Source: Diplonema papillatum
Taxonomy: Eukaryota; Euglenozoa; Diplonemea; Diplonemida; Diplonemidae
NCBI GenBank assembly: GCA_030068145.1
Contig: JAPJBO010000430.1
Span: forward strand, 121,933 to 185,932
Length of the DNA: 64,000 nt
Direction of reading: 5' to 3'
Shown: piece by piece, positions 20,151-60,857 of the stretch
Position numbering within the stretch: position 1 is the first letter of the stretch
Layout of the letters: each line of letters opens with the position of its first letter
Notes under the pieces: model-generated
The model's input: only the letters and a program-made list of their open reading frames with translations
The model's database searches: none
What the model was told of the DNA's origin: nothing
Translations under genes and position numbers: made by a program

Positions 20151-21065
20151 ACAGGTCCCTGAAGCCGATGAGGCAACACGTGGGCAGTGGGTTCAAGAAT
20201 CTCGAGCACTACTCGGGGCAGGGGGGTGAGAAATCACCCCACACCATCTCTTTCCAAAAGGCCAACCACCTATCTCTAGCCTTTCACACACACGGTGAGG
20301 TCCAGCTTCAGAAGCTGGAGGTAAACAGGGTGTGTCCGAGTCACACCCGAAAAGCGGGTGTGCCGCAACCATAACGCGTGTAAATCCACACCCGAAAAGC
20401 GGGTGTGGCACCCGCTTTTTAACTCCAGCTTTAAGTCCAGCTTCTGAGGCTGGCCTTCGCGCGCGCACCTCAGAATAACCCCAGAAACCCGAAGCCCCTG
20501 CAGGCAGAGCGAACTGGGCCCACCGCAGCTCCGTTTCCACGGAGCTGTGTACCCACGCCCTCTCTAACACGACGGTGCTGCTACTTGCCCGCCTTTTCCA
20601 AGCGCGAAACACATCGGTGCGAGCGGAAAATCAAGTTACGGCAGCGACACGACATTCGTGAGGCAGATGGACAGTAAGAAGCATGGTGCACGCAACCTCA
20701 TTATCCTGCAGCAAGAAGCATAGTGCAGACAAACATGTTACGAAGCATAGTGCAGACAATCATGGTACCTAGCAACACGGAGCATGATGCAAACAGTCTT
20801 GTCATCCAGCTATACGACTACTTCCAAAACGAATCATAACGCAAACAGCCTTGTTATCCAAAAATACGAAGCATCACGCACAACTTAGGAGCATGAAGGA
20901 AGCCATCTTGTTTTCCATTGACAAAAAATTACCAAGCCAACTTTCTTGGTATCCAGCAAAGCCAATCTTGCTATTTAGTGGCAAAAAAGCATCATGCAAA
21001 CAGTCCAGCAACCAACAATACAATGCACACAACCTAGGGAGGCTTAGCTGCGCAAGAAATTGAAC
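20151..21065. other. Upstream region of the 21066 gene
   Basis: It holds short inverted motifs around CACCCGAAAAGCGGGTGTG (20340-20415) and a degenerate array of AGCATAGTGCAGACAA-type words (about 20670-20900). No promoter element was recognised. AG dinucleotides near 21040-21056 could serve as spliced-leader acceptors if this organism trans-splices. Confidence 0.4.
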
Positions 21066-23516: not shown

Positions 23517-23526
23517 GCGGGTGGGA

Positions 23527-23730
23527 AGGTAGCCAAATGCCTCGTCTTCTAATTAAAGACGCGCATGAATGGACCAATGAGATTCCTTCTGTCCCTACCT
23601 ACTATCTGGCGAAACAGCAGTCAAGGGAACGGGCTTGAAACTGTCAGCGGGGAAAGAAGACCCTGTTGAGTTTGACTCTAGTCTGACTTTGTGCAGTGAC
23701 ACGAGAGGTGTAGAATAGGTGGGAGTGGAT
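23527..23730 (+). rRNA. LSU (28S) rRNA fragment, domain V region
   Basis: It begins GGTAGCCAAATGCCTCGTC and runs colinearly with eukaryotic 28S through GACGCGCATGAATGGA, AAGGGAACGGGCTT, GAAAGAAGACCCTGTTGAG and AGAGGTGTAGAATAGGTGGG. Several normally conserved positions differ (TTAAAGACGCGC where TTAGTGACGCGC is usual), so it may be a decayed copy. It starts 10 nt after the stop codon of the preceding gene, in the same orientation, and so would lie in that gene's 3' UTR. Confidence 0.9.
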
Positions 23731-25237
23731 CTGCATGCACGTTCTCATGGGCACGGTTACCGGTACTGCACGACGTCGTCTTGTGGAGGTCGTGGTATAG
23801 TCCTTTGACAGAGTGAGCCTATGCCTCTCATCTCACCTTTAAAACACGGCTGAGTCACGCATGCTCTTGCCAGCGTCTTGTGGAGGTCGTGGGACTACTA
23901 CGTCTTCTTGCGAATCGGACGCACTCAATGACAGGCCTGGGGAGGGATGGGTTTGCATACACCTTCTCACGAGCAAGGTCACCTTATGACGTCGTACTTA
24001 TAGAGGGAACGGAGCGGTCTTCTGGCGCAGGGGAAACGGCGTTGCTAGGAGTCCCCACCCGAACCAGCAAAGCACTGGGATCTTTTGATTACATGAACCA
24101 CGCGGATCTGCATGCACTTCCCCACGGGCTAGAACACTTCATGACGTCGCCGTTGCCTGCTATTGCGTTGTGTGGTACTCGATAAGGTACACACGTACGC
24201 CGATTCGACGGTGTCCCGAAACGTTGGTACTCGTTTTCTTTCGTTAGCGCCGTGTTCCGAGCATTCCGCACCTGTAACAGCACGCCAGATTGAGAGGCGC
24301 AGATCCCGGCGTTCGAAAGGCCTTTTGCCCGAAAGCTCTCGCGGGGGAAGAATGCGCGGGGATCGAGTGAAGCCCCCTGAGGACTGGCTACCGGGATCCC
24401 GAGGCGTGTTCGTTCCCGAAAATTGGGAATTGACGGTCGAACTCCTATTTCCCTGGGAGCAAAGAGTTGCTCATGCGACTGCGATATATTGCAACGCCTT
24501 ATACTGACCCCAAGCTTTGCCCGGGCCGCCGGCTCCGTGCATTTACGAGTTGCACGCAGCTTTTTCATGCGGGCATGTCATGATCGCGATCCCGGTGGTT
24601 GTCGCAGCAGTCCGCCATCGTCTTCTATTTTGACGAATCACAATGCGTGTTTTCGCCTTGCACCGCCCTCCAACTGTGATGTGCCGTGGTAGTTTGAGGT
24701 TGGGACTGAACGAAGTCCGTGGCTACAGTCCGCACATTATCCACTCGGACACCTTGCACCGTTCCGCCGCTTGAACTCTGCTGTCGCAATTGTCTTCGCA
24801 CAGCTGCTTTTTGCGCCTTGCCCCGGTGGGTGGTTTTTTTTGTACACACACACACAAAACGAAGCGCCTGCATTCTTGTTTTTTCCTGTCGAGTTTTTGT
24901 GACCGTATCGCACAGCGACAGGCAATTCAGAGCAGCTCCTTACGCGGGAGGGACTGATACGCAACCCCTCCTTAAAGCCCCCTCTCTCTGACCAGTATTC
25001 TTGCCTGCTTTCATTGCGCAACCCTTCTAGCCTTCGTGATCCTGGGTACGCTGCCTTCTTGGGACGCCGCACTCTGGTCACGTACCTCACAACCCTACGA
25101 ACCGCAATTCTGCGTGTTCTTGTTGCGGTAGTGAAAATTGTCCTGTGCCAGATGGAACCGACGCCTCTCTTCACACCTTTTAGACACGTTTGTGAAATGC
25201 TGGGCGCCCGATCCGCGGATGTCGCCGACAACATGAG
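23731..25237. other. Intergenic repeat-rich stretch
   Basis: The phrase GTCTTGTGGAGGTCGTGG occurs near 23778 and 23874. A copy of the ACATGAACCAC repeat lies near 24090. A (CA)5 tract sits near 24845. No convincing gene was found; frames up to about 160 codons lack the GC3 bias of host exons. Confidence 0.4.
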
Positions 25238-27624: not shown

Positions 27625-28713
27625 TCAATGTGCCTGGTTGTTCTGCTGCAACTGGGGGAGTCCCGGCAGGTTGACGTTGTAGTTCACAACATACGATGCT
27701 GCTTGCATGGGCGCTTGCATGAAGGACTGCACAGGTGCTGTCGTGCTGGGTAGGACTGTTGGATGAGCGCTGCTGACAAGTGTTGCGGTCGAGTTCTTGA
27801 TAGCCACTGACGATGAAACGTACTGGTTTGCAGCAGATGACGTGGCGTGGTTGAGCATAGCCTGGATCTGAGCCTGTGAGGCTCCCTGGTCTGCCGCAGA
27901 CTGTGCTGCACCCCGCCGTACGCCATGTGATGTGACATCAATGCCCGCCGGACCGATCGGTTTTTTCAGGACTTTAGCCATGTACCTTGTGACCGTGTAC
28001 ACTTGGTTGATACCAAGAGGCTCGTTCGTGAGGCCCTTCTTGGATCCTGTTACAAGGAACCTGCCGTTGGAACGGATGTGGAACTCGGCCCTTGCATTGG
28101 TATACGCGGAGACGGTCGAGTAAAACGGCCCGTCACGAATGAGGAAGAAGTCGCGGACCACTTCACCCCTCTGCTTGCTGGGTGTAAACACCACCTTCAA
28201 GTATTTCTCTCTTGCTGGGGTTACACGTGGGATCACGTCTTCGGGAGAGATTGTCAGCACTTCATTTGCACGGAGGCTTCCACACCACTGGAGCGCCAGT
28301 GTCGCTTGTCTCACCAGATGATACCACTTGTTGTCGTCTTCCTCCGGCTCACTCTCCATGAATGCAATGGCGTCTTCCTTGGACAGCCCAGGAGATTGCT
28401 TCGGCTTCTCGCCGCTGCGGAAGCTGCGCGCAAGATCGTACAACTCAGGGTACTCAACTGCAAGCTTCTGGCTATACTTTTGGTAGTATGTCGATGCCAA
28501 GCGAGAAAGTATACTCGCGACCGACGAGCCCTTCTGTGACTCGTGCAATTTGTCCAGGTACAGGACAAAGTCAGTTTTTGACGGCTTCCTCGTTTTGATT
28601 TTGGCAAACGTTGCGAACGCTTCCCACTCCGCCTCGTACACAGGTGCACTTTTTGCAGGCACCTTGGCGTTCTTCAGAATGTCATCTGCCTCGCGCTGGC
28701 GCTTCGACGGCAT
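27625..28713 (-). CDS. Tyrosine recombinase, Crypton-like
   Basis: This intact 362-residue frame opens with a real ATG. All tyrosine recombinase active-site residues are visible: Arg148 in GSLRANEV, Lys180 in FTPSKQRG, His263-x-x-Arg266 in TSHGVRRGA, His289 in LNHA, and the nucleophile Tyr298 in NQYV. Residues 1-110 form the helical N-terminal core-binding domain. A Gln/Pro/Val-rich tail of about 60 residues follows the catalytic domain. Enzymes of this family cut and rejoin DNA through a 3'-phosphotyrosine and move the element by site-specific recombination. No RT lies nearby, which argues for Crypton rather than DIRS or Ngaro. The frame is unbroken, so the protein could be active. Codon use is less GC3-biased than host exons, as expected for a mobile gene. 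Confidence 0.88.
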   Translation of the reverse strand: MPSKRQREADDILKNAKVPAKSAPVYEAEWEAFATFAKIKTRKPSKTDFVLYLDKLHESQKGSSVASILSRLASTYYQKYSQKLAVEYPELYDLARSFRSGEKPKQSPGLSKEDAIAFMESEPEEDDNKWYHLVRQATLALQWCGSLRANEVLTISPEDVIPRVTPAREKYLKVVFTPSKQRGEVVRDFFLIRDGPFYSTVSAYTNARAEFHIRSNGRFLVTGSKKGLTNEPLGINQVYTVTRYMAKVLKKPIGPAGIDVTSHGVRRGAAQSAADQGASQAQIQAMLNHATSSAANQYVSSSVAIKNSTATLVSSAHPTVLPSTTAPVQSFMQAPMQAASYVVNYNVNLPGLPQLQQNNQAH

Positions 28714-28780
28714 CGGGATTTTGATTTCTTCCTCTGTCCTTGGGCTGTTTTCACAGTTGGCAGGATCAGAAAGGATGAAT

Positions 28781-28865: not shown

Positions 28866-28879
28866 TGCCTACGACCTTA

Positions 28880-29375
28880 TTTTGCGCCGCCAGCTATTTT
28901 CAGTCGGAAAAATAAACGAATTTATTTCGCCGCCAGCTATTTTCAGTCGGAAAAATAAACGAATTTATTTCCCTAGGGACAATAAATTTCATTTATTTGT
29001 TTCGACTGAAAATAGCTGGCGGCGCAAAATAAATTCCGAGATCGGAAAAAAATAAATTCGTTTATTTGTCCGGCCTGTGTAAACACAACGGAATCCTGTC
29101 AAAAAATAAACGAAATTTATCGTCACGCTCCTCCAGCCATTTCCACCAGAGGGAATTTATTTTTCCCAATAAATTTCGTTTATTTTTTTCACCTGAAAAT
29201 GGCTGGCGGCACAAAATAAATGCTGCCACACGAAATAAATTCCTAAAATAAACTCGTTTATTTTTCCGGCCTGTGTAAACACAACGGAATCCTGCCAAAA
29301 ATAAACGAAATTTATCGTCACGCTCCTCAAGCCATTTCCACCAGAGGGAATTTATTTTTCCCAATAAATAAGTAT
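28880..29375. repeat. AT-rich inverted and direct repeats
   Basis: GCCAGCTATTTTCAGTCGGA occurs twice directly (28888, 28932) and once inverted (about 29008-29025). A roughly 198-bp unit with GGCCTGTGTAAACACAACGG is repeated at 29050-29180 and 29248-29370. The recurring ATAAACGAATTTAT words link this block to the foldback elements. Confidence 0.8.
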
Positions 29376-30106: not shown

Positions 30107-30319
30107 GGGGGCGGTGCATCGTGCAGTCGAAAAACGGAAGTTTCCGGCGGCTTTTCTCGCTTTCGTGCCGCCTCCGGTACACTTCTTTGTGGCGCACCCC
30201 TGGTGTAAAAAAGAGGTGGCCTTTTTGCCTCCACCAGCGCCTACGGAAGTACAAGAACGGACAGCGAAAGGTATTGAAGAGCAGCCCTGCTGTGCGGTGG
30301 GAAGAAGAAGAAGAAAAAG

Positions 30320-30570
30320 AAAATGGCCGCTCCTGGTCCAGGAACGTGACGGTCAACCACAGCTTGCAAAGCTTGAGTCGGAGGCAGCACAGTGCCACAA
30401 CCCCGTCCGCTCTGCCCTGTGGCTGACCGTCTCGACGAGCTTGTGTTCAGCGCAAGCGCCAAGCCCCAAGGTGCGCCACGCCTTGATGTTTTAGTTTGGG
30501 AAATCGGTAGCCACTTGACCCGTAGGCCCGAGGCTCTGCAGTACCGCCGAACACGTTTCCCTGGTACCGA
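30320..30570 (+). repeat. Family A, partial copy
   Basis: It is collinear with 56787-57064, including CAGCTTGCAAAGCTTGAGTC and TCGGTAGCCACTTGACCCGT, and ends at TTTCCCTGGTACC. It lacks the poly(A) end. Confidence 0.8.
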
Positions 30571-31029: not shown

Positions 31030-31429
31030 GAAACCTGCAGTCCGAAAACGTGACCAAATTGCAACAAACCTGCCCACTGAAAATGCGACAATCTGGCGTG
31101 TGAACAGTCCTCGGGAAACCGTTAATCCATTAACGTGACCAAGTTTCAACGAACCTGCCTGTCTGAAAATGCGACAATCTTACAGTGTGAACAGTCCTCG
31201 AGAAACCCTCAATCCGAAAACGTGACCAAATTGCAACAAACCTGCCCGTCTGAAAATGCGACAATCTGTTAGTGTGAACAGTCCTCGGGAAACCTTCAAT
31301 CCGAAAACGTGACCAAATTGCAACAAACCTGCCCGTCTGAAAACGCGACAATCTGATAGTGTGAACAGTTCTCGGGAAACCTTCAATCCGAAAACGTGAC
31401 CAAGTTTCAACAAGGAGGGGCGAGAGGGA

Positions 31430-31699
31430 ATGGCCGCCGCGTCGCACTATGAAATCCTGGGCGTGCCCGCAGACTGCACTGCGGGCGACGTCGAGCGGGC
31501 GTACCGTCGAGACGCACCCCGACAGAAACCGGGGCGGGTGCGCGGAGGAGGAGTTCGTCGCCGTGAAGGCGGCGTGCGACGCACTGCTCGAAGCGAAGGC
31601 GAAGCTGCTGCCGGCGGCCCCGAAGCAGCCGGCGGACCAGCCGCCCCCCGCAGCCTTCAAACGAGACACCGACCTGTACGCCCATGCGAGCACATCTAG
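31430..31699 (+). pseudogene. J-domain exon, copy 1 (frameshifted)
   Basis: It begins like the intact exon (MAAASHYEILGVPADC) but lacks 11 bp right after the GTACCG that encodes AYR. The frame shifts before the HPD motif, which is lost; the rest is Arg/Gly-rich junk ending at 31699. The downstream DNA still matches copy 2, so this is a damaged duplicate. Confidence 0.9.
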
Positions 31700-32043
31700 T
31701 GCCCGGATGCACAGCCTGCAGTAAAGAGGCAGGGACACGAAGCCGTTAGAAAAACCTTCAGTCCGAAAACGCGGCCAAATTTCAACACCAACCCGCCGTC
31801 TGAAAATGCGACAATCTGATAGTGTGAACAGTCCTCGAGAAACGTTCAATCCGAAAACGTGACCAAATTTCAACAAACCTGCCCTGTGCACAGTCCTCGA
31901 GAAACCTTCAATCCGAAAACGTGACCAAATTTCAACACCAACCCGCCGTCTGAAAATGCGACCATCTGATAGTGTGAACAGTCCTCGAGAAACGTTCAAT
32001 CCGAAAACGTGACCAAAATTTCAACAAGGTGGGGCGAGAGGGA

Positions 32044-32349
32044 ATGGCCGCCGCATCGCACTATGAAATCCTGGGTGTGCCCGCAGACTGCACCGCGGGC
32101 GACGTCGAGCGGGCGTACCGCCGGCGCGCGCTCGAGACGCACCCCGACAGAAACCGGGGCGGGTGCGCGGAGGAGGAGTTCGTCGCCGTGAAGGCGGCGT
32201 GCGACGCACTGCTCGAAGCGAAGGCGAAGCTGCTGCCGGCGGCCCCGAAGCAGCCGGCGGACCAGCCGCCCCCCGCAGCCTTCAAGCGAGACACCGACCT
32301 GTACGCCCATGCGAGCACATCTAGTGCCCGGATGCACAGCCTGCAGTAA
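32044..32349 (+). CDS. Truncated J-domain protein, copy 2
   Basis: This 101-residue frame has a complete J domain: Tyr-x-Ile-Leu-Gly start, helix II YRRRALE, HPD at residues 33-35 and a helix III core. It is identical to the intact exon through about residue 73, then leaves it for a different tail ending MHSLQ and a stop, encoded by DNA also found in copy 1 and, inverted, near 29680. A lone J domain could in principle stimulate Hsp70 ATPase. Without evidence of transcription, a non-functional partial duplicate is as likely. Confidence 0.5.
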   Translation: MAAASHYEILGVPADCTAGDVERAYRRRALETHPDRNRGGCAEEEFVAVKAACDALLEAKAKLLPAAPKQPADQPPPAAFKRDTDLYAHASTSSARMHSLQ

Positions 32350-32668
32350 AGAGGCAGCGACACGAAGCCGTTAGAAAAACCTTCAGTCCGAAAACGCGGT
32401 CAAATTTCAACACCAACCCGCCGTCTGAAAATGCGACAATCTGATAGTGTGAACAGTCCTCGAGAAACGTTCAATCCGAAAACGTGACCAAATTGCAACA
32501 AACCTGCCCTGTGCACAGTCCTCGAGAAACCTTCAATCCGAAAACGTGACCAAATTTCAACACCAACCCGCCGTCTGAAAATGCGACCATCTGATAGTGT
32601 GAACAGTCCTCGAGAAACGTTCAATCCGAAAACGTGACCAAAATTTCAACAAGGTGGGGCGAGAGGGA

Positions 32669-33379
32669 ATGGCCGCCGCATCGCACTATGAAATCCTGGG
32701 TGTGCCCGCAGACTGCACCGCGGGCGACGTCGAGCGGGCGTACCGCCGGCGCGCGCTCGAGACGCACCCCGACAGAAACCGGGGCGGGTGCGCGGAGGAG
32801 GAGTTCGTCGCCGTGAAGGCGGCGTGCGACGCACTGCTCGAAGCGAAGGCGAAGCTGCTGCCGGCGGCCCCGAAGCCGGCGGCGGACCAGCCGCCCCCGC
32901 AGCCGGGGCACAGGCAAGCCGAACCCGTGCAGGACGACTGGTCCCGCGGGATCGCGGACCTGTGCAGGGCCGAGTGCGAGCGGTTGAAGGAGGCGCGAGA
33001 GCGCTGGAACGAGATCTTCGAGGTCACTGCGTCCGGCAAGGTCACCAGGAAGCAGAGGGCCGCCGCCGCGGCCACCGAAGCGTCGAACTGGGAAGACCGC
33101 CGCCGGGAGATCCGGCGGGTGGCCGACGATCCGCCGCGCGGCCAGCGGCGGCAGGCTCCCGGCGGGCCGTCGCCGTCTCCGCTGCTGCCGCCGGCGCGGA
33201 CGTTCGAAACCGAGTTCTCGTCCGCCCCGCCGCAGCAACGGGCCGCCGCGCACCACCAGCTGTCCCTCCACCACGGCGCCAAAACCGTGAGGCCGCTGCC
33301 GCGCGCGGCTAGACGGCCCGTCAGCGCGTCGCCGTTCGCGCCGAAGACGGTTCTGGGCCGCGACGCGGGCGAGCAACAG
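32669..33379 (+). CDS. DnaJ-type (J-domain) protein, first exon
   Basis: It is the third and only full copy, 237 codons. The J domain occupies residues 5-65 with HPD at 33-35, the residues that contact Hsp70. Beyond it lie a charged helical stretch (ERLKEARERWNEIFEV, about 108-123) and a basic, Pro-rich disordered part. There is no Gly/Phe region or zinc domain, so it is a class C-type (specialised) J protein. The exon ends in phase 0 at a strong donor, CAACAG/GTACGT. The ATG is chosen because all three copies share it and the same GGTGGGGCGAGAGGGA-like leader. The best downstream partner is the phase-0 exon at 38684. The partner role of the protein is unknown. Confidence 0.8.
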
Positions 33380-33394
33380 GTACGTTTTGCGTGT

Positions 33395-33860
33395 GTGTCA
33401 CGAAGTGTTTCTGTACAAGCACCTGCTAAACGTGTTTTTGCGTAAGCACCTGCTGGACGTGTTTTTGTACAAGCACCTGCTAGACGTGCTTTTTGTGTAA
33501 GCGCCTGCTAGATGTGTTTTTGTACAAGCACCCGCCAGGCGTAAGCACCTGCTGGACGTGTTTTTGTGTAAGCACCTGCTGGCGTGTTTTTGTATAAGCA
33601 CCTTTGTATAACATGCAGGGTCAACACCTTGTGTCTTTTTTTCCGGAAAAAAAATGGGGGTTTGAAGTTTTAAAATTTTGGAACAAACGCTGCAGTAATT
33701 TTTGATGAAGTTGAGCAATTCTTTTTTTCCCAATTTTTTTTTGGGGGCCATCGGCCCCGCGGCAGCGTTTAAAAAAGACACAAGGTTTTGACCCTGCATG
33801 ATAAGCACCTGCTAGACGTGTTTTTGTGCAAGCACCTGCTAAACGTGTTTTTGTATAGGC
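33395..33860 (+). repeat. About 30-bp tandem repeat, interrupted
   Basis: The unit GTTTTTGTACAAGCACCTGC-TAGACGT repeats about eight times with small length changes. It is split at 33612 by a TIR element and resumes at 33801. Confidence 0.85.
33612..33800. mobile_element. 189-bp TIR element (MITE-like)
   Basis: The ends are CATGCAGGGTCAACACCTTG and its complement; about 30 bp match with one mismatch. ATAA flanks both sides (33608-33611 and 33801-33804), consistent with a target duplication. It lies inside the 30-bp array. It encodes nothing, so it would need a transposase in trans. Confidence 0.85.
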
Positions 33861-47553: not shown

Positions 47554-47828
<275 letters not shown>

Positions 47829-47867
47829 GAATTCATGTATGGGTAACCCCTGTTGCGGAGTATGGCC

Positions 47868-47870
<3 letters not shown>

Positions 47871-47933
<63 letters not shown>
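47871..47933 (+). repeat. TG microsatellite 2
   Basis: About 31 units, separated from array 1 by 43 bp containing ATGGGTAACCCCTG. Confidence 0.97.
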
Positions 47934-47935
<2 letters not shown>

Positions 47936-48349
47936 GAGACCTGTTTTTACGTGGTGCCCTCCTGTGCGAGGGGCGTCCACGCCTCCTTCTGTTTCAAATA
48001 ACCGCTGATGCTCCCGCAGGTTGCGAGTAGGGTCCGTTTTCAACTGGGGATGGTGCCTCGAACAGCACCTCGCGATTCCTTCGTTGTCAGCTTCACACCC
48101 GCCGCAGCGCTCCAGTCTGTGGGCTGTGCAGAATTGCACCCGCGGCCTTAGGCCATCTCCTTCATGATGGTGCTGTGTATACCAGCAACAGGTCTCCGCT
48201 GGCAGGCGCTTCTTCGCACATCCCTTGCATCGGGGCTTCCTATGTAGTGCGCATATTTCGCCTGGGCGAGCCGTGTTCACCGCGTCCTTCGGGGCCTTCT
48301 TCGGTCGCGCCCCTCTGCACGCTCCTGCACCCGGAACCTTGTCTCCCAT
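47933..48349 (-). CDS. Antisense ORF with duplicated Cys/His motif, copy 1
   Basis: The 138-residue frame with ATG runs antisense in the TIM50 intron. Two stretches share exact metal-ligand spacing: Cys33-x2-His36-x4-Cys41-x2-Cys44-x9-Cys54-Cys55 with His60-62, and Cys74-x2-His77-x4-Cys82-x2-Cys85-x9-Cys95-Cys96 with His99-100. Offsets 0, 3, 8, 11, 21 and 22 are identical, while other residues differ, so this looks like selected zinc-binding repeats rather than chance. The N-terminus is basic. On this strand the unit is preceded by a CA array ending in CAG and the frame ends near AACAG/GTCTCT, so it could also be an internal exon of a mobile element. The family is not recognised. Confidence 0.45.
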
Positions 48350-48382
48350 CTCGACTCTTGCCTTCCAGTCGGTCTTCCCTTG

Positions 48383-48383
<1 letters not shown>

Positions 48384-48430
<47 letters not shown>
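48384..48430 (+). repeat. TG microsatellite 3
   Basis: About 23 units between the two 450-bp copies. Confidence 0.97.
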
Positions 48431-48432
<2 letters not shown>

Positions 48433-48846
48433 GAGACCTGTTTTTACGTGGTGCCCTCCTGTGCGAGGGGCGTCCACGCCTCCTTCTGTTTCAAATAACC
48501 GCTGATGCTCCCGCAGGTTGCGAGTAGGGTCCGTTTTCAACTGGGGATGGTGCCTCGAACAGCACCTCGCGATTCCTTCGTTGTCAGCTTCACACCCGCC
48601 GCAGCGCTCCAGTCTGTGGGCTGTGCAGAATTGCACCCGCGGCCTTAGGCCATCTCCTTCATGATGGTGCTGTGTATACCGGCAACAGGTCTCCGCTGGC
48701 AGGCGCTTCTTCGCACATCCCTTGCATCGGGGCTTCCTATGTAGTGCGCATATTTCGCCTGGGCGAGCCGTGTTCACCGCGTCCTTCGGGGCCTTCTTCG
48801 GTCGCGCCCCTCTGCACGCTCCTGCACCCGGAACCTTGTCTACCAT
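48430..48846 (-). CDS. Antisense ORF with duplicated Cys/His motif, copy 2
   Basis: This is a 497-bp-offset copy of the 47933 frame. The 450-bp units (47934-48383 and 48431-48880) differ by two bases that I can find, changing Gly2 to Val and Trp56 to Arg; all Cys and His ligands are kept. The duplication is therefore very recent. Confidence 0.45.
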
Positions 48847-48879
48847 CTCGACTCTTGCCTTCCAGTCGGTCTTCCCTTG

Positions 48880-49080
<201 letters not shown>

Positions 49081-49113
49081 GGTTCCATTTAATACGACCC
49101 TCACCGGATACAG

Positions 49114-49971
49114 GTCAACAAGCACCGAGACCGATTCTGGCCGGCGCTGTATCTCGTCGGGGCGCTTTTCGGCGTCGCGACGCTTCGGAACCTGTACACG
49201 CAGTTCACCACGCCGGACGCGCAGGGGAAGGTGATGTTCAAGAAGATGCTGTACTACAAGCGCGACAAGATCCTCGGCGAGAAGCCGGAGCACCACAACA
49301 CGAACCCGACCATGCTCATCGACATCAACGACGCGATGGTTCACACCTCGTACAGGGAGGGCACGAAGGGCATCCAGACCATCAAGCGGCCAGGGCTCGA
49401 CGCGTTCATCGAACACACGCGGGACAACTACGAGACGGTCATTTTCTCGTTCTCCGAGTACCCTGCGCTGATGGAGCTGATCACTCGGCTGGACCCGCAG
49501 CAGTCGTTCGTCTCGAACGCTATCCCGAGGGAGTTGATCAAGCGGATTGACACGGGGGAGTGGCCGTACGGGGTAATCCCGTCGTTCATCGCGCCGAGGT
49601 ACAAGAAGAACCTCTTCGACGTCGGCCGGACGCCGGAGCGGATGATCCACATCGAGACCGACCCGGACGCGTGCGTCGACGACCCTGCGCAGAACGACAA
49701 CCGGATCTTCATCCCCCGGTACGAGGGCGACGACACCGACATGCACCTCGTCCACCTGATCCCGTTCCTGGACTTCCTCGCGAACAAGTCGGCCGCGCCG
49801 TTCGACGTGCGGAAGTCGATCCGGTTCTACACGCACAAGATGAACGAGTACGGCGTCGACAACATCGGCGTCGCCTTCGTGCTCTACCAGGAGGAGAAGA
49901 AGAAGAGGAAGCTCTCGCAGGGCGACCAACCGAAGCAGTCCCTGCTCGGCGGCTTGTTCTCGGTCTTCTAA
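49114..49971 (+). CDS. TIM50: TIM50, exon 2 (membrane segment and NIF/FCP-like domain)
   Basis: It follows CAG at 49113 in phase 0, giving a 335-residue protein. Residues 58-74 (FWPALYLVGALFGVATL) form the single inner-membrane helix. The NIF/HAD-type domain runs from about 95 to 270, with MLIDINDAMVHTSY at the strand that carries DxDx(T/V) in active phosphatases; the second Asp is Asn here. Other family marks are KRPGLDAFIEH, YETVIFSFSEYP and the C-terminal LSQGDQPKQSLLGGLFSVF, which parallels animal TIM50 ends. TIM50 is the intermembrane-space receptor of the TIM23 complex, handing presequence proteins from TOM to TIM23. Length and order match the family. Codon use is host-like. Confidence 0.9.
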   Translation, partial: VNKHRDRFWPALYLVGALFGVATLRNLYTQFTTPDAQGKVMFKKMLYYKRDKILGEKPEHHNTNPTMLIDINDAMVHTSYREGTKGIQTIKRPGLDAFIEHTRDNYETVIFSFSEYPALMELITRLDPQQSFVSNAIPRELIKRIDTGEWPYGVIPSFIAPRYKKNLFDVGRTPERMIHIETDPDACVDDPAQNDNRIFIPRYEGDDTDMHLVHLIPFLDFLANKSAAPFDVRKSIRFYTHKMNEYGVDNIGVAFVLYQEEKKKRKLSQGDQPKQSLLGGLFSVF

Positions 49972-50199
49972 TCCCCCGGGGGAAGGGAAGGGGGGCGGGC
50001 AACCTAATCTTTCGAGGGGAGTGGGGAAGACTTCATCAGTCTGCGAAGTGGGATAACAGTGGTTCCGATCGTGTCAACTGCGGTTGATCGAGTGACTTGT
50101 TATCTAGCGGCACTTCGTCGGGACGTCATTCCCGGAGAAGAAGCGGCGGCGTGACAGCTGCCGGCACGCAGAAAGGAAGCAAAGACGACGAACTAAAGT
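49972..50199. other. TIM50 3' flank and rDNA-like spacer
   Basis: TCAACTGCGGTTGATCGAG near 50077 recurs at 50422 and, inverted, near 50865, 50955 and 51120, with a GGCACTTCGTCGGGA-type partner. These look like rDNA spacer subrepeats. Confidence 0.5.
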
Positions 50200-50289
50200 T
50201 CAGCGCCCGAATCCAAGCAATGTTTCTCAGCTAGAGGAAACAAAAGTCGTAACAAGGTTGCTGTAGGTGAACCTGCAGCAGGATCATCA
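50200..50289 (+). rRNA. SSU (18S) rRNA, 3'-terminal fragment
   Basis: AAAAGTCGTAACAAGGTTGC, TGTAGGTGAACCTGCAG and AGGATCAT are the universal 3' end of 18S. The CTGCAG variant before AGGATCAT is shared with kinetoplastids. The upstream decoding-region words of 18S are absent, so only the last ~60-90 nt are present. Confidence 0.9.
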
Positions 50290-50448
50290 CCAAAGATTTC
50301 AATTCTGAATGGAATGAGGAAACGACTTTCAAACAGATTGGAAACCGAGGATTCAAACATGGTCATGAAGGAAATCGAAAATCCCGAGCAATCGGAAAGG
50401 CAAAACAACTGTTCCCCTCGGCTCAACTGCGGTTGATCGAGGGTGACA
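50290..50448 (+). other. ITS1-like spacer
   Basis: It lies between the 18S end and 5.8S, about 160 bp, with a GCTCAACTGCGGTTGATCGA subrepeat next to 5.8S. Confidence 0.7.
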
Positions 50449-50590
50449 TCAATTGCACTTCTCGGTGGATGTCTTGGCTCTGGGAACGATGAAGACCGCG
50501 GCCAGACGCGATAGCCAATGGGAATTGCAGAAGCATGAGACTCATCAGGTCGTCGAACGCATTAGCGGGCTAGTGCCGGGTGAACACGAG
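50449..50590 (+). rRNA. 5.8S rRNA
   Basis: CTCGGTGGATGTCTTGGCTC, ACGATGAAGACCGCGGCCAG, GCGATAGCCAATGGGAATTG and GTCGAACGCATTAGCG follow the order of 5.8S RNA. Some conserved positions differ (GAAGACCGC for GAAGAACGC), so function is uncertain. No 28S start follows. Confidence 0.82.
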
Positions 50591-51984
50591 GTGGGTGGAA
50601 ACCCCCGAGAACAAGCAGTTGCGCAGGGAAGCCTGCTGCGGCTGGTGGGCCCTGCTGCGGCTGGTGGGCCCTGCTGCGGCTGGTGGGCGACACTGGTGCT
50701 GCCGATGGTGAGAAAGTTCACGGTTCAGGTGGCCCAAAAGCGGGATCAAATGGACAGAGTCCGGGGTCGTCGGACTGCTGCCTTTCTGCGGGCGGTCAGC
50801 TTGTATGCTGCTGCTTCTCCAGGAATGAAGTCCCGACGAAGTGCCGCTAAATGACAGTTTCTTGATCAACCGCAAGGTTTCTCTGTTCATCGAGATTTCA
50901 CGCTGCTGCTTCTCCGGGAATGACCCCGACGAAGTGCCGATAGATGACAGTCAATCAACCGCAGCTGGAAACGATCGGGAACAGCTTCCCCCTTCACCGA
51001 GAACGGTTGTCTCACGTCACAGTACGATGAATTGTGCGTCGCCTCTGTTGTCCATCTGCGTGCAGGCAGCTTTCACGATGCTGCTTCTCAGGGAATGGAG
51101 GTGCCGCAAGATGACAGTCACTCGATCAACCGCAGTTGAAACGAACGAAACCACTGTTCACAGGTTGACGAAGTCCTCCCGCGTGTTCCCTGTTCCAGTA
51201 GATTCATTTCCAGCCCCCCTCGCTGCTCTGGAATACGTTCTTCTGAGCCAGTCTACCCCTACTTCCTCGAACTGCGTCGAATAGCCTGCTCGTGTGTATC
51301 AGCAGATTCGGCTGAGTGCAAACGCCAGAAGCACGACACGGTGCGATCGAGAAGAGGTAGTCACCTGGTGGGCTAATGCAGGCCATCGCTCAAGGTATTC
51401 TGCATTCTACCCTCAACTGCTACTGTCTATCACAGTCGATCAGCAGTCTATCGCAGGCTGTCGATTCGACTCCTCAAACGCATCACGCACATCGACGGGA
51501 ACTGCGAAATTCTGGAATCCAGTCTGTGACTGCTTCGAAAACGCGGGCATTGTTGGAATTGTTTTTACGTTTTACGCACCACGACCAACCGACCCACCTC
51601 CTGTTGGAGGGGTCCGGTTGGATACGAGCACTGATGACAATTCGATGTGCCAATTCCCTCAGAAATTCTGCTTACTGGTTTGTCTGCGCCTTTTGTGTTC
51701 GCTGACGTAAAGTCTGCGGGATACTTCTTGGTGACATGACTGCAAGAAAGAACGAAGAGGAATCAAACCATCCAGGGTAAACCTATCACTTACATTGCGT
51801 AGGGGCAAGATGAAAATACCCGTCCAGGGGACTTACGGAAATAAGCTTGTCTGGACAAGGTCACAGGGGGAAGGGAGGGTGGGTTTTCTTCCCGTCCAAC
51901 GACACCCCCCCCAACCACCTGGTTCTTGGGTGGCTTGACGACTGCGCAGCAGCATTTCCGCAGTGAGACTGTAATAAACGACAA
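50591..51984. other. rDNA spacer-like region, no gene
   Basis: A 22-bp repeat, GCTGCGGCTGGTGGGCCCT, occurs three times at 50635-50690. Segments at 50810-50890, 50895-50965 and 51075-51150 share GCTGCTTCTC(C/A)GGGAATG and ATGACAGT-C-ATCAACCGCAG. No 28S 5' region was found. Confidence 0.5.
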
Positions 51985-52069
51985 CTGTCGTAGGCTGTCG
52001 TAGGCTGTCGTAGGCTGTCGTAGGCTGTCGTAGGCTGTCGTAGGCTATCATAGGCTATCATAGGCTATA
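51985..52069 (+). repeat. 10-bp tandem repeat (8 copies)
   Basis: CTGTCGTAGG six times, then CTATCATAGG twice. Confidence 0.95.
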
Positions 52070-52617
52070 ACGAGCTCTTTGTCTAGTGTAGTCAAGACGA
52101 GCGGAAGGAGGCGAAAGCGTGATATATCACGTGCGAAGAGATAACCGCGACGCCGGCGACGCAGATTATCGCCCGCAGATTCTTCGCATTCTAACCCGAA
52201 CCCCAAACTATCATAGTCTATCAGCCGGGGGGCGGACCGGCTCATATTCGCGATTTCCTGAGCGATCCTCTTGGGGAGGAAGCCACCCTCGGCCGGCCCC
52301 ATCGAGCACCCTGCGGGACCCTGCGCACACAAACGCAGAAGCCGCAACAACGCTGAGTGGTCACACACAGACCAAGCTCTCAATGCATCCCCCCTCATCT
52401 AGCCGTTCATTTTTATTGCTTCTTTTTTCCCCCGTTTTTCTTTCTTTTTTTTTTTTGCCTTCTTTCTTTTATTCGTTTGTTCTTTTGAACAAATCTAGCT
52501 AGTCGCGGCGTTTATCAAGAAAGCAGGTACGGAACAACTACAAAAAGGCCGTCCTTTTCCTCCGAAAGAAAGAAACCGTACACCGCGAGAGTAGGAGAAA
52601 GTAGAAAAGGGAACTAG
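52070..52617. other. Intergenic, pyrimidine-rich right half
   Basis: It contains long C/T tracts near 52420-52480 and no gene. Confidence 0.4.
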
Positions 52618-53127
52618 AGTTTTCGTTGACCGCACTACCCTGAGCCCAAATCCTGGACGTGGTTTCAGGGTGGTAAATTTGCAAATGATCATGATCAGAA
52701 TGTCCTACTTGGCGGTTCAGTTTCCTCACACATTGCATGTGGCTAAAAAGAAAATAGTGGGAACGTTGCGTGGCTGCCAGGCGAGAGCAAGTTCGCTCCG
52801 GGGCCAAAGCATCACTGTCAACTGCAGCATGCAAAAGCTGGATTGGAGTTGGAGTTGACACAGTGTTACACATAGCCCGGTCTTTTTCCTCAGCACAGTG
52901 CCACAACCCCGTCCGCTCTGCCCTGCGGCTGACCGTCTCGACGAGCTTGTGTTCAGTGCGAGCGCCAAGCCCCAAGGTGCGCCACGCCTTGATGCTTTAG
53001 TTTGGGAACTCGGTAGCCACTTGACCCGTAGGCCCGTGGCTCTGCAGTACCGCCGAACACGTGAAGCTTGGCTCCCGTGTAGCAGGCTTTCCCTGGTACC
53101 TGAGGAGGTGACAGAAAAAAAAAAGAA
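52618..53127 (+). repeat. Family A, long copy with poly(A) end
   Basis: It starts GTTTTCGTTGACCGCACTAC, passes GGCGGTTCAGTTTCC and CACAACCCCGTCCGCTCTGC, and ends CCCTGGTACCTGAGGAGGTG, ACAG and A10. It encodes a short conserved peptide (DRLDELVFSASAKPQGAPRL) in one frame. A 3' poly(A) suggests a retroposon. Confidence 0.8.
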
Positions 53128-53128
53128 T

Positions 53129-53290
53129 TAGCCACAGGGATCACTGGCTTGTGGCAGCCAAGCGTTCGTAGCGACGTTGCTTTTTGATCTTTCGATGTCG
53201 GCTCTCCCTAACCTAGACAAGCAGAATTGTCTACGTCTACGGGTTGGATTGTTCCCCCACCAACAGGAAACGTGAGCTGGGTTTAGATAG
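53129..53290 (+). rRNA. LSU (28S) rRNA fragment, peptidyl-transferase region
   Basis: CACAGGGATCACTGGCTTGT, GCAGCCAAGCGTTCGTAGCG, GATGTCGGCTCT and GAAACGTGAGCTGGGTTTAG follow 28S domain V order. GGGATCACTGG replaces the near-universal GGGATAACTGG seen in many eukaryotes. It ends abruptly at GTTTAGA, where a tandem array begins. Confidence 0.92.
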
Positions 53291-53945
53291 TCAGAGGTAC
53301 AAGCTTGGTCGGCAGCGTATCGTGGTGTTACGATCGAACGAGGACTACACACGCGTTCGCAAGCAAAACTGCGGGCTTGGGCTCAGCGCAAGTCGCAAGT
53401 GCCAAGCCCCCCCAAGTAGAGCTAAAGGATCAAGCTTGGTTGGCAGCGTATCGTGGTGTAACGATCAAACGGGGCGCTACACACGTGCGCGCAAACAAAC
53501 CCGCGGGCTTTGGGTTCAGCGCAAGCCGCAGAGCGCCAAACCCCCCCTCAAGTAGAGCTTATTGATCAAGCTTGGTTGGCAGTGTATCGGTGTTACGATC
53601 GACGAGGACTACACACGTGCTCGCAAGCAAAACTGCGGGCTTGGGCTCAGCGCACGTCGCATGCGCCAAACCCCCCCCAAGTAGAGCTTAAGGATCAAGC
53701 TTGGTTGACAGCGTATCGTGGTGTAACGATCGACGAGGACTACACACGTGCTCGCAAGCAAAACTGCGGGCTTGGGCTCAGCGCAAGTCGCAAGTGCCAA
53801 GCCCCCCCCCAAGTAGAGCTAAAGGATCAAGCTTGGTTGGCAGCGTATCGTGGTGTAACGATCAAACGGGGCGCTACACACGTGCGCGCAAACAAACCCG
53901 CGGGCTTTGGGTTCAGCGCAAGCCGCAGAGCGCCAAAGACCAATA
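53291..53945 (+). repeat. About 135-140-bp tandem repeat (5 copies)
   Basis: Units begin AAGGATCAAGCTTGGTTGGC and contain GCGTATCGTGGTGTAACGAT. Two subtypes alternate (GACGAGGACTACACACG and AAACGGGGCGCTACACACG). Units 1, 2 and 5 read DQAWLAAYRGVTI in one frame, but length changes break the frame between some units. Confidence 0.9.
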
Positions 53946-54439
53946 CGGCGCGCCTTGAGATGCAGGGGACTTTGGAAACCCGGTTTCCCGGTTTCAGGAA
54001 CCGGGTTTTTCCGGTTTCGAGTTTTTCAAAAAAATAAAAGTAATTTATAAATTATGGTTTCTACTGTACTGTACTGTACAGTGACTGCAGATACATGGCG
54101 CGTCACGGTGTGTCACTGCAATTCGAAGCTTTTCACTTACCACTCCGTAGTTTGATAGACGTGCACACCACCACCACCGCAAGCTTATATCTCACCACCC
54201 CCCTCCGTCCCCTTGTTTACGTGCGCGGGGCGACGGTTCCAGGCAGTCAGACACCCACAGGCACCGCAGAGCCCCAAAACCGGGGTTTTGGCTGAAACCG
54301 GCTTTTTTGCTCGGTCAGACAAAGAGCTAAAGTCCCCTGTTGAGATGCTTTGGTTTTGGGAAATCGGTAGCCACTCGCCCGGTAGGCGCCAGTAGCTGGT
54401 TAAACGCTCGCAGGCTCATGTCAGACACAGCGATCTTCT
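53946..54439. other. Unassigned intergenic sequence
   Basis: Short motifs only: AACCCGGTTTCCCGGTTTC (53980), TACTGTACTGTACTGTACAG (54063), and a family A fragment with GGGAAATCGGTAGCCACT near 54358. Confidence 0.45.
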
Positions 54440-54550
54440 ACACCCGTCTTGAAACACGGACCAAGGAGTCTAACACGTGTGCGAGGCTTAGGGTGTCAAA
54501 CCCACAAGCCGCACTGAAAGGGAGATGTGCCAATCCTTGATTGCGCAGTG
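54440..54550 (+). rRNA. LSU (28S) rRNA fragment, D3 region
   Basis: CCCGTCTTGAAACACGGACC, AAGGAGTCTAACACGTGTGC and TTAGGGTGTCAAACCCACAA match 28S exactly at the universal positions. The homologous but changed and longer piece is at 16074-16285. After about 54550 the similarity to that copy stops. Confidence 0.92.
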
Positions 54551-55394
54551 CCACACGTGGGGCTGGCCCCGAGCCCCCAGGCTTCTGTTCTTAAAAGGCT
54601 AGCTGACCAATTCTTTGATCCTCAAGCAGTTTTCTAGACAGAGACCCAGCTTCTCATGGCCGGCCGTCCAATTCTAGGTCCTTAAGGACCAGTTTTTTTT
54701 AGGCTTCTTGAGGCCAGCGTCGTCTGCTTGTAGCCCCCTGAAGGCAGAATACTTTTTCGAGAACGGCACGCCGCTGTGCTTAAAGAAAGACAAAAACAAA
54801 AGGATAGGAACGAGAGGGAACGTGTCAGTTAGACTTTGGCGGACAAATGCCCGGCGTGGGGAAGGGGGGGGGGGCGGTCTCGGGCCTTATATTTTATGGG
54901 TTGCCATGCCGTCATATGTCCGTCACCGGGATAAAAAGGGGGGGGAGGGGGCGAGGGGCGTCGGCCACAGTAGCCTCTAGGACAAAGCCATGGTTTGCCA
55001 TGCCGTCATCTGCCCGTCAAATAAGTATAGAGGTGGGGGATGGGGAGGTGGGGGGTTCTCCGCTGTTTGCCGGCAAGTGTCCGCCAAAGTCTAACTGACA
55101 CGTTCCCAGAACACAAAAAGACACACGCACGAGTACACGTACTGCCACTACAGCAGATACGATACGCACACCAACATACGATACCTTAAAGGAACCTTTA
55201 CGACAACGGTCACCCGGTGACTATAAACCCCCGGATCCCTAAGTGAACTTGCACCCTAAAGATAAACCTCTCTGCTGGTCTGGTACGAAAGGTTACCTCG
55301 CAATGTTGCGCAGAGACGCTTCCGCAAGCTTGGATACCCCAAGCCCGGCCCCACTGTCATTGCCATCAGGGCGCTGTAGAGACGGGGGCATGCG
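54551..55394. other. Unassigned intergenic sequence
   Basis: GGTTGCCATGCCGTCATATG (54900) and GGTTTGCCATGCCGTCATCT (54992) form a loose ~95-bp duplication; AACGTGTCAGTTAGACTTTG (54819) recurs inverted at 55083, bracketing it as about 20-bp inverted repeats. No gene. Confidence 0.5.
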
Positions 55395-55605
55395 GAAGTA
55401 CTCGAGGGACTGCCTTGTGCTCATTTCGAGGGAGGCTAGAGGGGGAGGAAACAATGCAACTACAAAGTGGGTCTTTTTTGGTGAACGCTTACGCTACTAA
55501 ACCCAGATTCACCTGTGTTTCGTGTGGGCTACAGCACATTTACCTCCTTTGATCTTTCGCGGCTGGCAGTCTCCTCAAGCATTTCCTATACAAAGCAGGT
55601 GCTTA
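55395..55605 (-). repeat. Family E, inverted copy
   Basis: GGGCTACAGCACATTTACCT and GGCAGTCTCCTCAAGCATTT are the reverse of 59395-59612; the left part (CTCGAGGGACTGCCTTGTGC) also matches 56456-56550 in reverse. Confidence 0.85.
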
Positions 55606-55812
55606 TACCGGGGCGGGAAACTCGGCAGGATCATGTGATCCTCGGCTTTCTTTTTTTTGTGTTAACAATGCATTGTTGGTACTAAATATTAGTAGTTGGC
55701 AGCGTACTACATGGAACTTACCAAAGCAGGTGAGTTCCGCTAGTGCGCACAAACAAAAAACTCAACTGGTAGAACGTGGGGGGCCCAAGACTACACTCCA
55801 CGAAGGAATGTA

Positions 55813-55985
55813 CTTGGTGTCGGTCACAAACAGTCCCGGGCATGGCTAGCCGTCCCCATAACGAAAGCGTGCACCAAGTATACAACCCATAACCATGTAG
55901 CCCTGTCTTGCTCGAAGAGAACCCATTCATGAACGGTCACACGGAGACCCTGAAACCCCGGAATTTCAAGCGAATTTTAACTCTA
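55813..55985 (+). repeat. Family C copy
   Basis: It is the counterpart of 46466-46660, with about 85% identity by eye. Confidence 0.85.
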
Positions 55986-56751
55986 AAATTTTTGTAGGTT
56001 CGCGCCCGTTTGGTGTATTGACACCAGACACATCCAGCCGTTCTCTGCCAACCCCTCGACGACTCGCACAGCCACCTCTTTAGGTAAGCTGACTTTCAAG
56101 CAGTTTACTGGGGCGGCAAAAAACTGCATACAACTGCACTTTTGACCCATACTCGTGGCTTCCGATGCTTTTGGGCAAATTTTAGTACTAACAATCTTGT
56201 GGGTTGCCCTTCAATGTATTGTGCAGGCTAAAAAGACGCAGGCAGCGTGTTTTGGTGGTTGATCAGAATTCCTTACCTGAATACACACAGGGTAAATACA
56301 AGTGGGAAAACGATCAACCGGCACGCACAAACAAAACGAAGCGGCTGTCTTTTTTAATTCACATGCGGAACGTGCGGAAAAGGTCCAATGAGGGGGCACC
56401 GGAGCCCAGTCGAACGTCTTCAGGTCCACTGACATTTTAGCAACCCCTAAGCGCGTAAAAAAAAAAAAAAAAAAACCCACCTTTGTAGTTGTATTGTTTT
56501 CTCCCCCTCTAGCCTCCTTCGAAATGAGCACAAGGCAGTCCCTCGAGTATTTTTTGTGCGATTTGACCTGTACGCGTTCAGGTTAAACCGCTGCCAACGT
56601 TCCTTTTTTAGCTGTAACGAGTATGCTCACTAAGGAGGTGGTTACTGGTTGTCGGAAGAATAACTGGAAGAGGTCGGCAAGGCATTCGAGAATGCTCGCG
56701 CAGCGTCTTTAACATCCCTTTCAGTTGCTGTTCCCCCCGCTCTCGATACTT
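55986..56751. other. Repeat fragments
   Basis: 56190-56350 is a diverged relative of the 355-bp array unit (GTATTGTGCAGGCTAAAAAG). 56456-56550 is a family E fragment preceded by A16. TTTACTGGGGCGGCA at 56105 resembles an LSU word but is too short to call. Confidence 0.6.
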
Positions 56752-57245
56752 GGGCGGTTCAGTTTCCACAAATTGCTTGTGGCTAAAAAGAAAAAGGCCG
56801 CTCCTGTTCGCCAGGAACGTGACGGTGAACCACAGCTTGCAAAGCTTGAGTCGGAGGCAGTACAGTGCTACAACCCCGTCCGCTCTGCCCTGCGGCTGAC
56901 CGCCCCGACGAGCTTGTGGTCAGCGCGAGCGCCAAGCCCCAAGGTGCGCCAAGCCTTGATGCTTTCGTTTGGGAAATCGGTAGCCACTTGACCCGTAGGC
57001 CCGTGGCTCTGCAGTCCCGCCGAACACGTGAAGCTTGGCTCCCGTGTAGCAGGGTTTCCCTGGTAACGGGGGGGGGGTCGAATAATAACACCTGGCGTTC
57101 TTATTCGATTTGTCGAATAATAAAAAAAGTTCCGGGTAGCCGAACAGTAGCAGGATCAAGTAGTGGTAGTGTTTTTAGACATCCACGTGTGTCAAATAAC
57201 TGTTATTATTCGACCCCCTTTACCTAAGGGGGAACAGGAAAAAAA
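56752..57245 (+). repeat. Family A copy, interrupted by a TIR element
   Basis: It is collinear with 52720-53127, including GGGCGGTTCAGTTTCC and CAGGGTTTCCCTGGTA; after the insertion it resumes TACCTAAGGGGGAACAGG and a poly(A) run. Confidence 0.85.
57066..57220. mobile_element. 155-bp TIR element with TA target duplication
   Basis: The ends GGGGGTCGAATAATAACA and TGTTATTATTCGACCCCC are inverted. TA occurs at both borders (57064-57065, 57221-57222). The uninterrupted family A copy near 53096 reads CCCTGGTACCTGAGG, the empty site with a single TA. TA duplication is typical of Tc1/mariner-type MITEs. Confidence 0.88.
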
Positions 57246-57585
57246 AAGGGGGGGAAAAAAAAAGAAAACATAAAAATCATGCAGTTTAAAGTTCAACAAA
57301 AAAAAGGTCATCACTTCTTCAGCGAAATTGTGTCCTTCTTGATGGTCGGGCAAGGCATCGTGCAATGTGTGTTAAGGAGAATCCACGGCTCACCGGCCAC
57401 CAACGCGTTTGGCCGGTCAGTTTGAGTGACTGATTGCGTTCATGGCGACACTGTGTTACATCGACACTGTCGGTGCTAAGAATTAGCGGTTGGCATCCTA
57501 AAGGGATGGGGGAATCTCTGGTATCAGAGAATCTCTGATTCGTCAGATTTTCCTCGGTCCAGTCTGGTTTGAGTGACAAGAAACC
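57246..57585. other. 5' flank of the SSU fragment
   Basis: No gene was found. AATCTCTGGTATCAGAGAAT near 57510 is a short inverted motif just upstream of the 18S start. Confidence 0.45.
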
Positions 57586-57725
57586 TGGTTGATCCTGCCA
57601 GTAGTCATATGCTTGTTTCAAGGATTAAGCCATGCAAGTCTCAGAGTAAATGGATTAACAGTGGGTCTGCAGACGGCTCAATAAATCGGTGGCAATCTAC
57701 GCGGGGAGTGTTTGTGCGGTCGTTT
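57586..57725 (+). rRNA. SSU (18S) rRNA, 5'-terminal fragment
   Basis: AACCTGGTTGATCCTGCCAG, TAGTCATATGCTTGTTTCAA and GGATTAAGCCATGCAAGTCT are the 18S 5' end, followed by TCTGCAGACGGCTCAATAAA. Similarity fades after about 57725, so only the first ~140 nt are present. Confidence 0.92.
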
Positions 57726-58472
57726 GTGCGATCGGGGTCACTCCCGCATTGAGGGAGTCCCACTCCCGCATTGATCTCATTTTCCTTGTACTTAAGAGTG
57801 AAAGTTCGCTTGCAACTCCGGGGTTTTAAAGTCTCCGGGTGACCTTCGTCGTTATGGGAAGATATCCTTTGTGCTCTGAGTGTCGTAAGAGTGGTGGTTG
57901 CACGAGGTAAGAGGATCGGTGGGGGGGGGGGCAGCGCTCTTGTTAAGGATCAGCCACTTTGGCCGGATGGCGGATAAACCAGACCCCCCCCCCCTCCCCC
58001 CCCTCTACAGTGCAGTTGCCTTGGAGGCTGGGTGGTCAAATTCTCTAAGGTGAAATGGTCAAAATTCCCTGCCAAAAGTGGGCCCACAAAATTTTCCAAA
58101 GTGTGGTATTTGGGGTATTTGGGGCAAAAAAAAATTTTTTTTTCTGACCGCCCACCGTGGTGACCACCTTAGAGTGTGACAGGTAGCGTCTCCCCCCTCC
58201 ACAGTGAAAATAGCCTGAGGGGGGGGGGGGGGGGGGGGGGAGGGGGGGGGGGTGGGATGGATGGATGGTTCTTAACAAGATGCCTGGGGGGGGGGGGGAT
58301 ATTTTTTGCTTCAGAAATGCAGGAGTGACACTCCCGCACTTTTTTCACTCCCGCACACACTCCCCCAACCGGCGGGGAGAGTCCGCCGTGTACGCGCAAC
58401 TTGCCAAAACAGCTGAGTTCCGCAAAGACGCAGCACCTAACGAAAGAAAACTGGCTAAAAAAAGCTAGCCGT
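57726..58472. other. G/C-homopolymer region
   Basis: G runs of 12 (57921), a C-rich complement (57985-58003) and a G22-A-G10 run (about 58219-58252), then G12 near 58287. TCACTCCCGCA words recur near 57739, 57764 and 58328. It may form quadruplexes. No gene. Confidence 0.7.

Positions 58473-59866: not shown

Positions 59867-60857
<991 letters not shown>

Follow-up and report, generated by a model that had tools for sequence, protein, structure and literature searches.

Short ribosomal RNA gene pieces among the repeats of a Diplonema papillatum contig are probably captured, inert copies

Scattered rRNA sequences in diplonemids and beyond

The genome of Diplonema papillatum is described as containing, in addition to ordinary 18S-5.8S-28S units, ~3600 pieces of the 28S ribosomal RNA (rRNA) gene, each no longer than 10% of the gene and scattered genome-wide, which have been likened to terminal-repeat retrotransposons in miniature (TRIMs) and to short interspersed nuclear elements (SINEs) with 5S or 28S rRNA portions (PMC10161547). 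Here we analyse a 64-kb stretch of D. papillatum contig JAPJBO010000430.1 (hereafter, the window), in which Rfam models and self-comparison identified six rRNA-derived pieces, all on the plus strand. These are likely to be inert dispersed copies of short segments of nuclear ribosomal DNA (rDNA), captured into a repeat-rich diplonemid genome. We read the window as a further case of the scattered pieces known from this species, to which it would add pieces of small-subunit (SSU) rRNA and of internal transcribed spacer 1 (ITS1) with 5.8S rRNA, as well as one insertion seen in detail.

The resemblance to the published 28S pieces is close, both sets being short and dispersed in a repeat-rich genome where ordinary rDNA is expected elsewhere, whereas the main-text passages concerned do not describe insertion anatomy and the SSU and ITS1-5.8S pieces are an addition (PMC10161547). 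The pieces of large-subunit (LSU) rRNA in the window, at ~100-210 nt, fall within the same size range of up to ~10% of the 28S gene. SINEs and TRIMs with 5S or 28S portions likewise have an rRNA segment in or beside a dispersed repeat (PMC10161547). Unlike in such elements, the two copies of the LSU D3 domain in the window differ in their flanks, and no family with a fixed rRNA head is apparent. A SINE with a 28S portion is reportedly known as SINE28. In mammals, chimeras of the long interspersed element LINE-1 with 28S rRNA contain 28S segments of 50-482 nt, 83% of them in sense (PMC13174262); they share with the window repeat-joined and mostly sense 28S pieces, whereas at the pieces studied here neither a LINE partner nor a target duplication or A-tail was identified. 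Finally, euglenids and metakinetoplastids offer a euglenozoan precedent for an LSU rRNA split into several pieces. Theirs belong to one operon with extra spacers (PMC9082867), whereas those in the window are scattered, out of sequence and in part present twice.

Six rRNA-derived pieces and a probable insertion into a tandem repeat

Along the window, the pieces follow each other as LSU D3, LSU domain V, SSU 3' end-ITS1-5.8S, the peptidyl-transferase centre (PTC) side of the LSU, D3 again and SSU 5' end (Table 1). This differs from the transcription order, with three descents in five steps, approximately the expectation for a random order, and four of the six pieces lie at 50-58 kb. The homology to rRNA is well beyond chance. 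Searching the whole window with Rfam yielded three matches above the gathering scores, namely, the PTC region at 53099-53294 (144.4 bits), 5.8S rRNA (80.7 bits) and the first D3 piece (51.9 bits). Domain V was matched with 159.4 bits (E 4.9e-41) when 23400-24000 was submitted. Shorter stretches searched with laxer filters revealed the SSU 5' end (E 1e-10) and the SSU 3' end (E 6.4e-7), both scoring below the gathering score of 50; such searches were run section by section over 15000-24000 and 49900-58400, and in the remainder, searched with the whole-window filters, short pieces may be missed. The second D3 piece was recovered by self-comparison (92% identity to the first over 100 columns, 54449-54548 against 16075-16173, E 7.6e-34), with no Rfam match even when 54100-55700 was submitted alone; the 8 nt preceding 54449, CACCCGTC, are LSU-like in our assessment. 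Matches to microRNA and other non-rRNA models remained below the gathering scores and were set aside, and exact scans of viral contigs with rRNA words derived from the window, one of them containing N, gave no match.

An initial annotation of the window, made from the sequence alone, had named these six plus-strand pieces and their departure from transcription order, and both claims stand. It had proposed searching them with SSU, LSU and 5.8S models, while allowing that the scores might show the sequences not to be rRNA; with the exception of the second D3 copy, rRNA was found at the named places, and scores of up to 159.4 bits support its identity. Two boundaries moved, the first D3 piece starting at 16075 by the junction comparison and the SSU 5' piece at 57582 rather than 57586. 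The plus-strand assignment holds for the six pieces; the repeats near 50.0-51.2 kb that resemble the end of ITS1 sit on both strands.

The origin of the first D3 piece could be addressed by comparison with empty sites. The leading partial unit of a repeat, 91% identical to the 365-bp array that follows, stops matching the repeat at 16074, and homology returns at 16285, with a 210-nt LSU segment in between. In the alignment, LSU sequence is absent from three further tandem units as well as from a dispersed copy (56180-56345). In place of D3, these empty-site units carry 10 nt, CAGGCAGCGT or, in one unit, CAGACAGCGT, the three tandem units reading cag(g/a)cagcgt. With four aligned copies of the repeat free of it, D3 was most likely inserted into non-ribosomal DNA. 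Insertion after the repeat had formed is the simplest reading of the alignment and, by that token, most likely, loss of the segment from the four other copies being possible but less simple. Neither a target duplication nor an A-tail is visible in the empty-site comparison at this piece, where 10 nt are missing instead. A small deletion with no accompanying duplication is consistent with the patching of a break, and reverse-transcriptase template switching is also possible.

Under the capture scenario, short nuclear rDNA segments would have been inserted among the repeats of a diplonemid (Euglenozoa) genome, either during the patching of DNA breaks or by template switching of a reverse transcriptase, the D3 segment arriving later than the repeat that holds it. 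The pieces would decay after insertion, and an ordinary rDNA unit, contiguous and located elsewhere, would supply the working rRNA.

Alternatively, the pieces might be what is left of one or more decayed rDNA units invaded by repeats, remaining near their original sites with spacers and missing parts lost or overwritten. The shared strand of the six pieces, the natural order of the SSU 3' end, ITS1 and 5.8S, and the grouping of four pieces at 50-58 kb all speak for such remnants, which are nonetheless an unlikely source of the set as a whole, considering the near-random order of the pieces and the position of two of them 11 nt and ~230 nt past the stop codons of open reading frames (ORFs). Moreover, local decay of an rDNA unit does not explain the first D3 piece, which interrupts a repeat that occurs without D3 elsewhere in the window. 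The long simple and tandem repeats of the window could also invite false joins to a high-copy rDNA unit during assembly, a concern already raised by the initial annotation. The two D3 copies, however, are 8% different within the 100 columns that they have in common, and the repeat unit to the left of the first carries on to its right without a shift of register, making a misjoin at that piece very unlikely; an assembly artefact is rejected on this ground for the first D3 piece alone, and as an account of the window we find it scarcely credible.

Table 1. Positions of the rRNA-derived pieces, adjoining repeats and selected ORFs in the 64-kb window.
Feature	Position	Strand	Evidence and remarks
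Repeat holding the first D3 piece	15950-17509	+	Self-comparison and tandem-repeat listing; leading partial unit 15950-16074 and 365-bp tandem array 16285-17509
LSU D3 piece, whole D3 domain and flanking core	16075-16284	+	Rfam RF02543 positions 675-812 at 16096-16228; edges from end (16074) and return (16285) of repeat homology
LSU domain V piece	23528-23725	+	Rfam, 159.4 bits
ORF with weak tyrosine-recombinase match	27628-28779	-	Phage_integrase, 26.2 bits, just short of the cut-off of 27.1 (E 7.9e-6)
ORF with DnaJ domain	32603-33442	+	E 5.3e-13; overlaps duplicated tRNA stretch
TIM50-like NIF phosphatase ORF	49093-49968	+	Pfam, E 1.3e-19
SSU 3' end, including helix 45	50200-50289	+	Rfam, 35.6 bits, end at model position 1831; 5' limit uncertain, ~50200 to 50222
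ITS1 (164 nt), linking SSU 3' end to 5.8S	50290-50453	+	Interval between two Rfam matches
5.8S rRNA	50454-50600	+	Rfam, 80.7 bits; 3' variable region matched weakly
Dispersed repeat left of PTC piece	52700-53098	+	Self-comparison; other copies near 56785-57065 and 30314-30556
LSU PTC-side piece	53127-53288	+	Rfam, 144.4 bits; A to C in GGGAUAAC
131-bp tandem repeat right of PTC piece	53300-53937	+	Tandem-repeat listing
Second, shorter LSU D3 piece	54441-54548	+	92% identity to 16075-16173; no Rfam match; start uncertain
SSU 5' end, ~120 nt	57582 to ~57700	+	Rfam, 48.0 bits, E 1e-10

Divergence of the source rRNA and the case against working fragments

Base pairing is retained beyond random expectation in D3, 5.8S and helix 45, with the control consisting of an equal number of substitutions placed at random. 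In the Rfam alignment of the D3 piece, 36 of 42 pairs are standard and 10 are changed on both sides, compared to random means of 21.2 and 2.97, respectively. In 5.8S rRNA, 17 of the 20 lettered pairs (25 in the model) are standard and 3 are doubly changed, where random placement averages 13.1 and 0.40. All 10 pairs of SSU helix 45 are standard, with 2 double changes (random means, 7.1 and 0.14). The PTC piece has 32 standard pairs out of 37 and 4 double changes, counted without a random control. Because many changes are compensated in helices, the source rRNA must have been divergent but functional, and the many base-pair changes reflect divergence of that source more than decay.

Helix 45 reads GTTGCTGTAGGTGAACCTGCAGCAGG and differs by one base from what we take to be the kinetoplastid form. 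Literature searches with the latter, on either strand, returned works whose titles all concern trypanosomatids, their vectors or their hosts, although the strings printed there may be something else; the window's own form gave no literature match on either strand. The apparent resemblance of helix 45 to the trypanosomatid form points to Euglenozoa, without amounting to proof. The wider content of the window, with many repeats, long ORFs, a TIM50-like ORF and a tyrosine-recombinase-like ORF, fits a diplonemid genome, although none of these features is specific.

Compensated helices and a trypanosomatid-like helix 45 would also be expected if the pieces were working rRNA that is fragmented and dispersed, with separately transcribed pieces assembled in trans, an arrangement more extreme than the split LSU known from euglenids and kinetoplastids. 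We consider this very improbable. The domain V piece ends at its 3' side inside a local hairpin, according to the structure line of the Rfam model, and the 5' edge of the first D3 piece presumably lies inside a conserved hairpin as well, judging by eye against the LSU core. In euglenids, by contrast, almost all rDNA expansions, where the extra spacers are located, fall in divergent regions, and 28S rRNA is apparently contiguous in all nine diplonemids covered by the same study (PMC9082867). Furthermore, D3 is present twice, with the second copy cut short, and in the PTC piece GGGAUCAC replaces GGGAUAAC at an upper-case consensus position. This position of GGGAUAAC is near-invariant across life. 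In total, changes affect 11 of the 128 upper-case consensus positions of the PTC piece, 9 of 152 in domain V, 9 of 72 in the SSU 5' end, 1 of 41 in the SSU 3' end and 14 of 67 in 5.8S; each of these may stem from lineage divergence or from decay. The pieces are thus probably not working rRNA, and functional dispersed rRNA is rejected on the basis of the cut hairpins, the D3 duplication and the PTC change.

The initial annotation had left two explanations in competition. Dispersed fragmented rRNA falters on the three observations just named and on the unrelated repeat around the one piece that could be tested. Plain decay of a normal rDNA array falls somewhat short as well: the first D3 piece resembles an insertion into non-ribosomal DNA. 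Changes at near-invariant positions, which had been taken to favour decay, are indeed present, yet many base-pair changes are compensated and attest to divergence of the source more than to decay.

Several points weigh against capture. With six of six pieces on one strand, the arithmetic chance is only ~1 in 32. The empty-site comparison covers one of the six pieces, its direction is one that we infer, and an rDNA array could have left behind the other five. Fitting the alignments to the structure of the Rfam models biases the pair counts towards structure, and for domain V the hairpin by itself, with 5 of 6 pairs standard, is not significant (P 0.12). No occurrence of GTACTTTATTG, presumably the ending of the spliced leader, was found in the window within 1 mismatch. 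Lastly, the published count of ~3600 is of 28S pieces, SSU or ITS pieces going unmentioned in the corresponding passages (PMC10161547). The window has 4 LSU pieces in its 64 kb, where 3600 in 280 Mb would predict 0.82 (Poisson, ~0.01); this density was not used because the window was picked for its pieces.

Repeats beside the pieces and a possible retroposon route

The 164-nt ITS1 inside the SSU 3'-5.8S piece implies that this piece derives from rDNA or an unprocessed precursor and not from mature rRNA. The piece lies ~230 nt downstream of the TIM50-like ORF and is flanked by four copies of a 60-140-bp repeat, at 50055-50193 on the plus strand and at 50776-50874, 50901-50978 and 51034-51158 on the minus strand. 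The 3' end of ITS1, and perhaps also the start of 5.8S, resembles three of the four copies above all shuffles.

The domain V piece begins 11 nt past the stop codon (23514-23516) of an 822-codon ORF, and its 5' edge is located 2 nt before the 3' junction of the R2 retrotransposon, TAGCCAAATGCC. For R2Tg, the 3' junction is printed followed by TAGCCAAATGCCTCG (PMC12222951). An actual R2 insertion at domain V was considered and rejected, the sequence to the left of the junction being the end of the long ORF with no recognisable R2 3' end, and only the coincidence of edges is retained. The portions of the literature seen on R2 targets (PMC5035012) and on diplonemid introns (PMC12621601) contained nothing decisive for the question of capture.

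Several otherwise unlike repeats (16285-17509, 53300-53937, 55690-55765 and 56233-56342) share a module that consists of GGCAGCGT, a variable, hairpin-capable middle, and GCACAAACAAAA or a similar sequence. The D3 and PTC pieces adjoin repeats with a similar module, although one of these repeats is without its left half. In the window, GGCAGCGT occurs 15 times against 4.16 expected and GCACAAACAAAA 6 times against 0.47, with both counts inflated by tandem copies; in the array beside the PTC piece, GCACAAACAAAA is matched loosely. Folding of five stretches of the module gave z-scores of -1.53, -0.21, 0.39, -5.12 and -2.65, that is, one far better than shuffles, one fairly so and three not, and we treat a conserved fold as a lead only.

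These repeats bring into consideration composite retroposons with rRNA heads, in which a reverse transcriptase acting on the RNA of a short repeat would switch to rRNA or its precursor and so leave an rRNA piece at the head of the repeat, a route proposed for the mammalian LINE-1/28S chimeras. We entertain this tentatively, as a mechanism within capture, so that its probability overlaps with that of capture itself. Two of the four LSU pieces have, no more than ~25 nt away, a repeat with the whole or part of a GGCAGCGT module, the starts of the two D3 pieces are at most ~10 nt apart (that of the second being uncertain), and domain V begins at the R2 junction. The human LINE-1/28S chimeras, with a median of 269 nt and the same 83% in sense, offer a parallel (PMC13174262). 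Conversely, we identified neither an A-tail nor a target duplication or partner element at the first D3 piece, and inspection of the other pieces by eye showed none either. Pfam, run on 28 of the 58 listed ORFs (200 codons or longer), detected no reverse-transcriptase domain at E 0.01. The module was chosen by eye, its 3' half is only similar at 53.3 kb, and the D3 copy is without GGCAGCGT. More speculative still, and in our view improbable, is a euglenozoan retroelement system that would capture rRNA or its precursor at preferred edges (the R2 cut site and the hairpin before D3) and plant it in sense at the heads of repeats whose module begins with GGCAGCGT, giving rise to a new class of rRNA-headed composite repeats.

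The window includes further repeats and genes. The ORF with the weak tyrosine-recombinase match possibly belongs, we assume, to a mobile element such as TATE. An inverted repeat at 28871-29045 (75-89% in self-comparison), with several microRNA matches below the Rfam gathering scores, is perhaps a foldback element. Two tRNA-Ser (cga) genes (32073-32168 and 32698-32793, minus strand) reside in a duplicated stretch (31116-32280 against 31752-32904, 93%), which the DnaJ-domain ORF overlaps. Long GT/TG runs extend over 47704-49053, 59868-60175 and 60540-60857, and a 497-bp unit is repeated at 99%.

Taken as captured copies, the pieces caution that scattered rRNA sequences in large protist genomes need not be fragmented rRNA genes. 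The first D3 piece provides one clean case, an rRNA segment within a repeat that also occurs without that segment. If thousands of such pieces were to share edges and partners, they would reveal how genomes of this kind capture abundant RNAs or broken rDNA.

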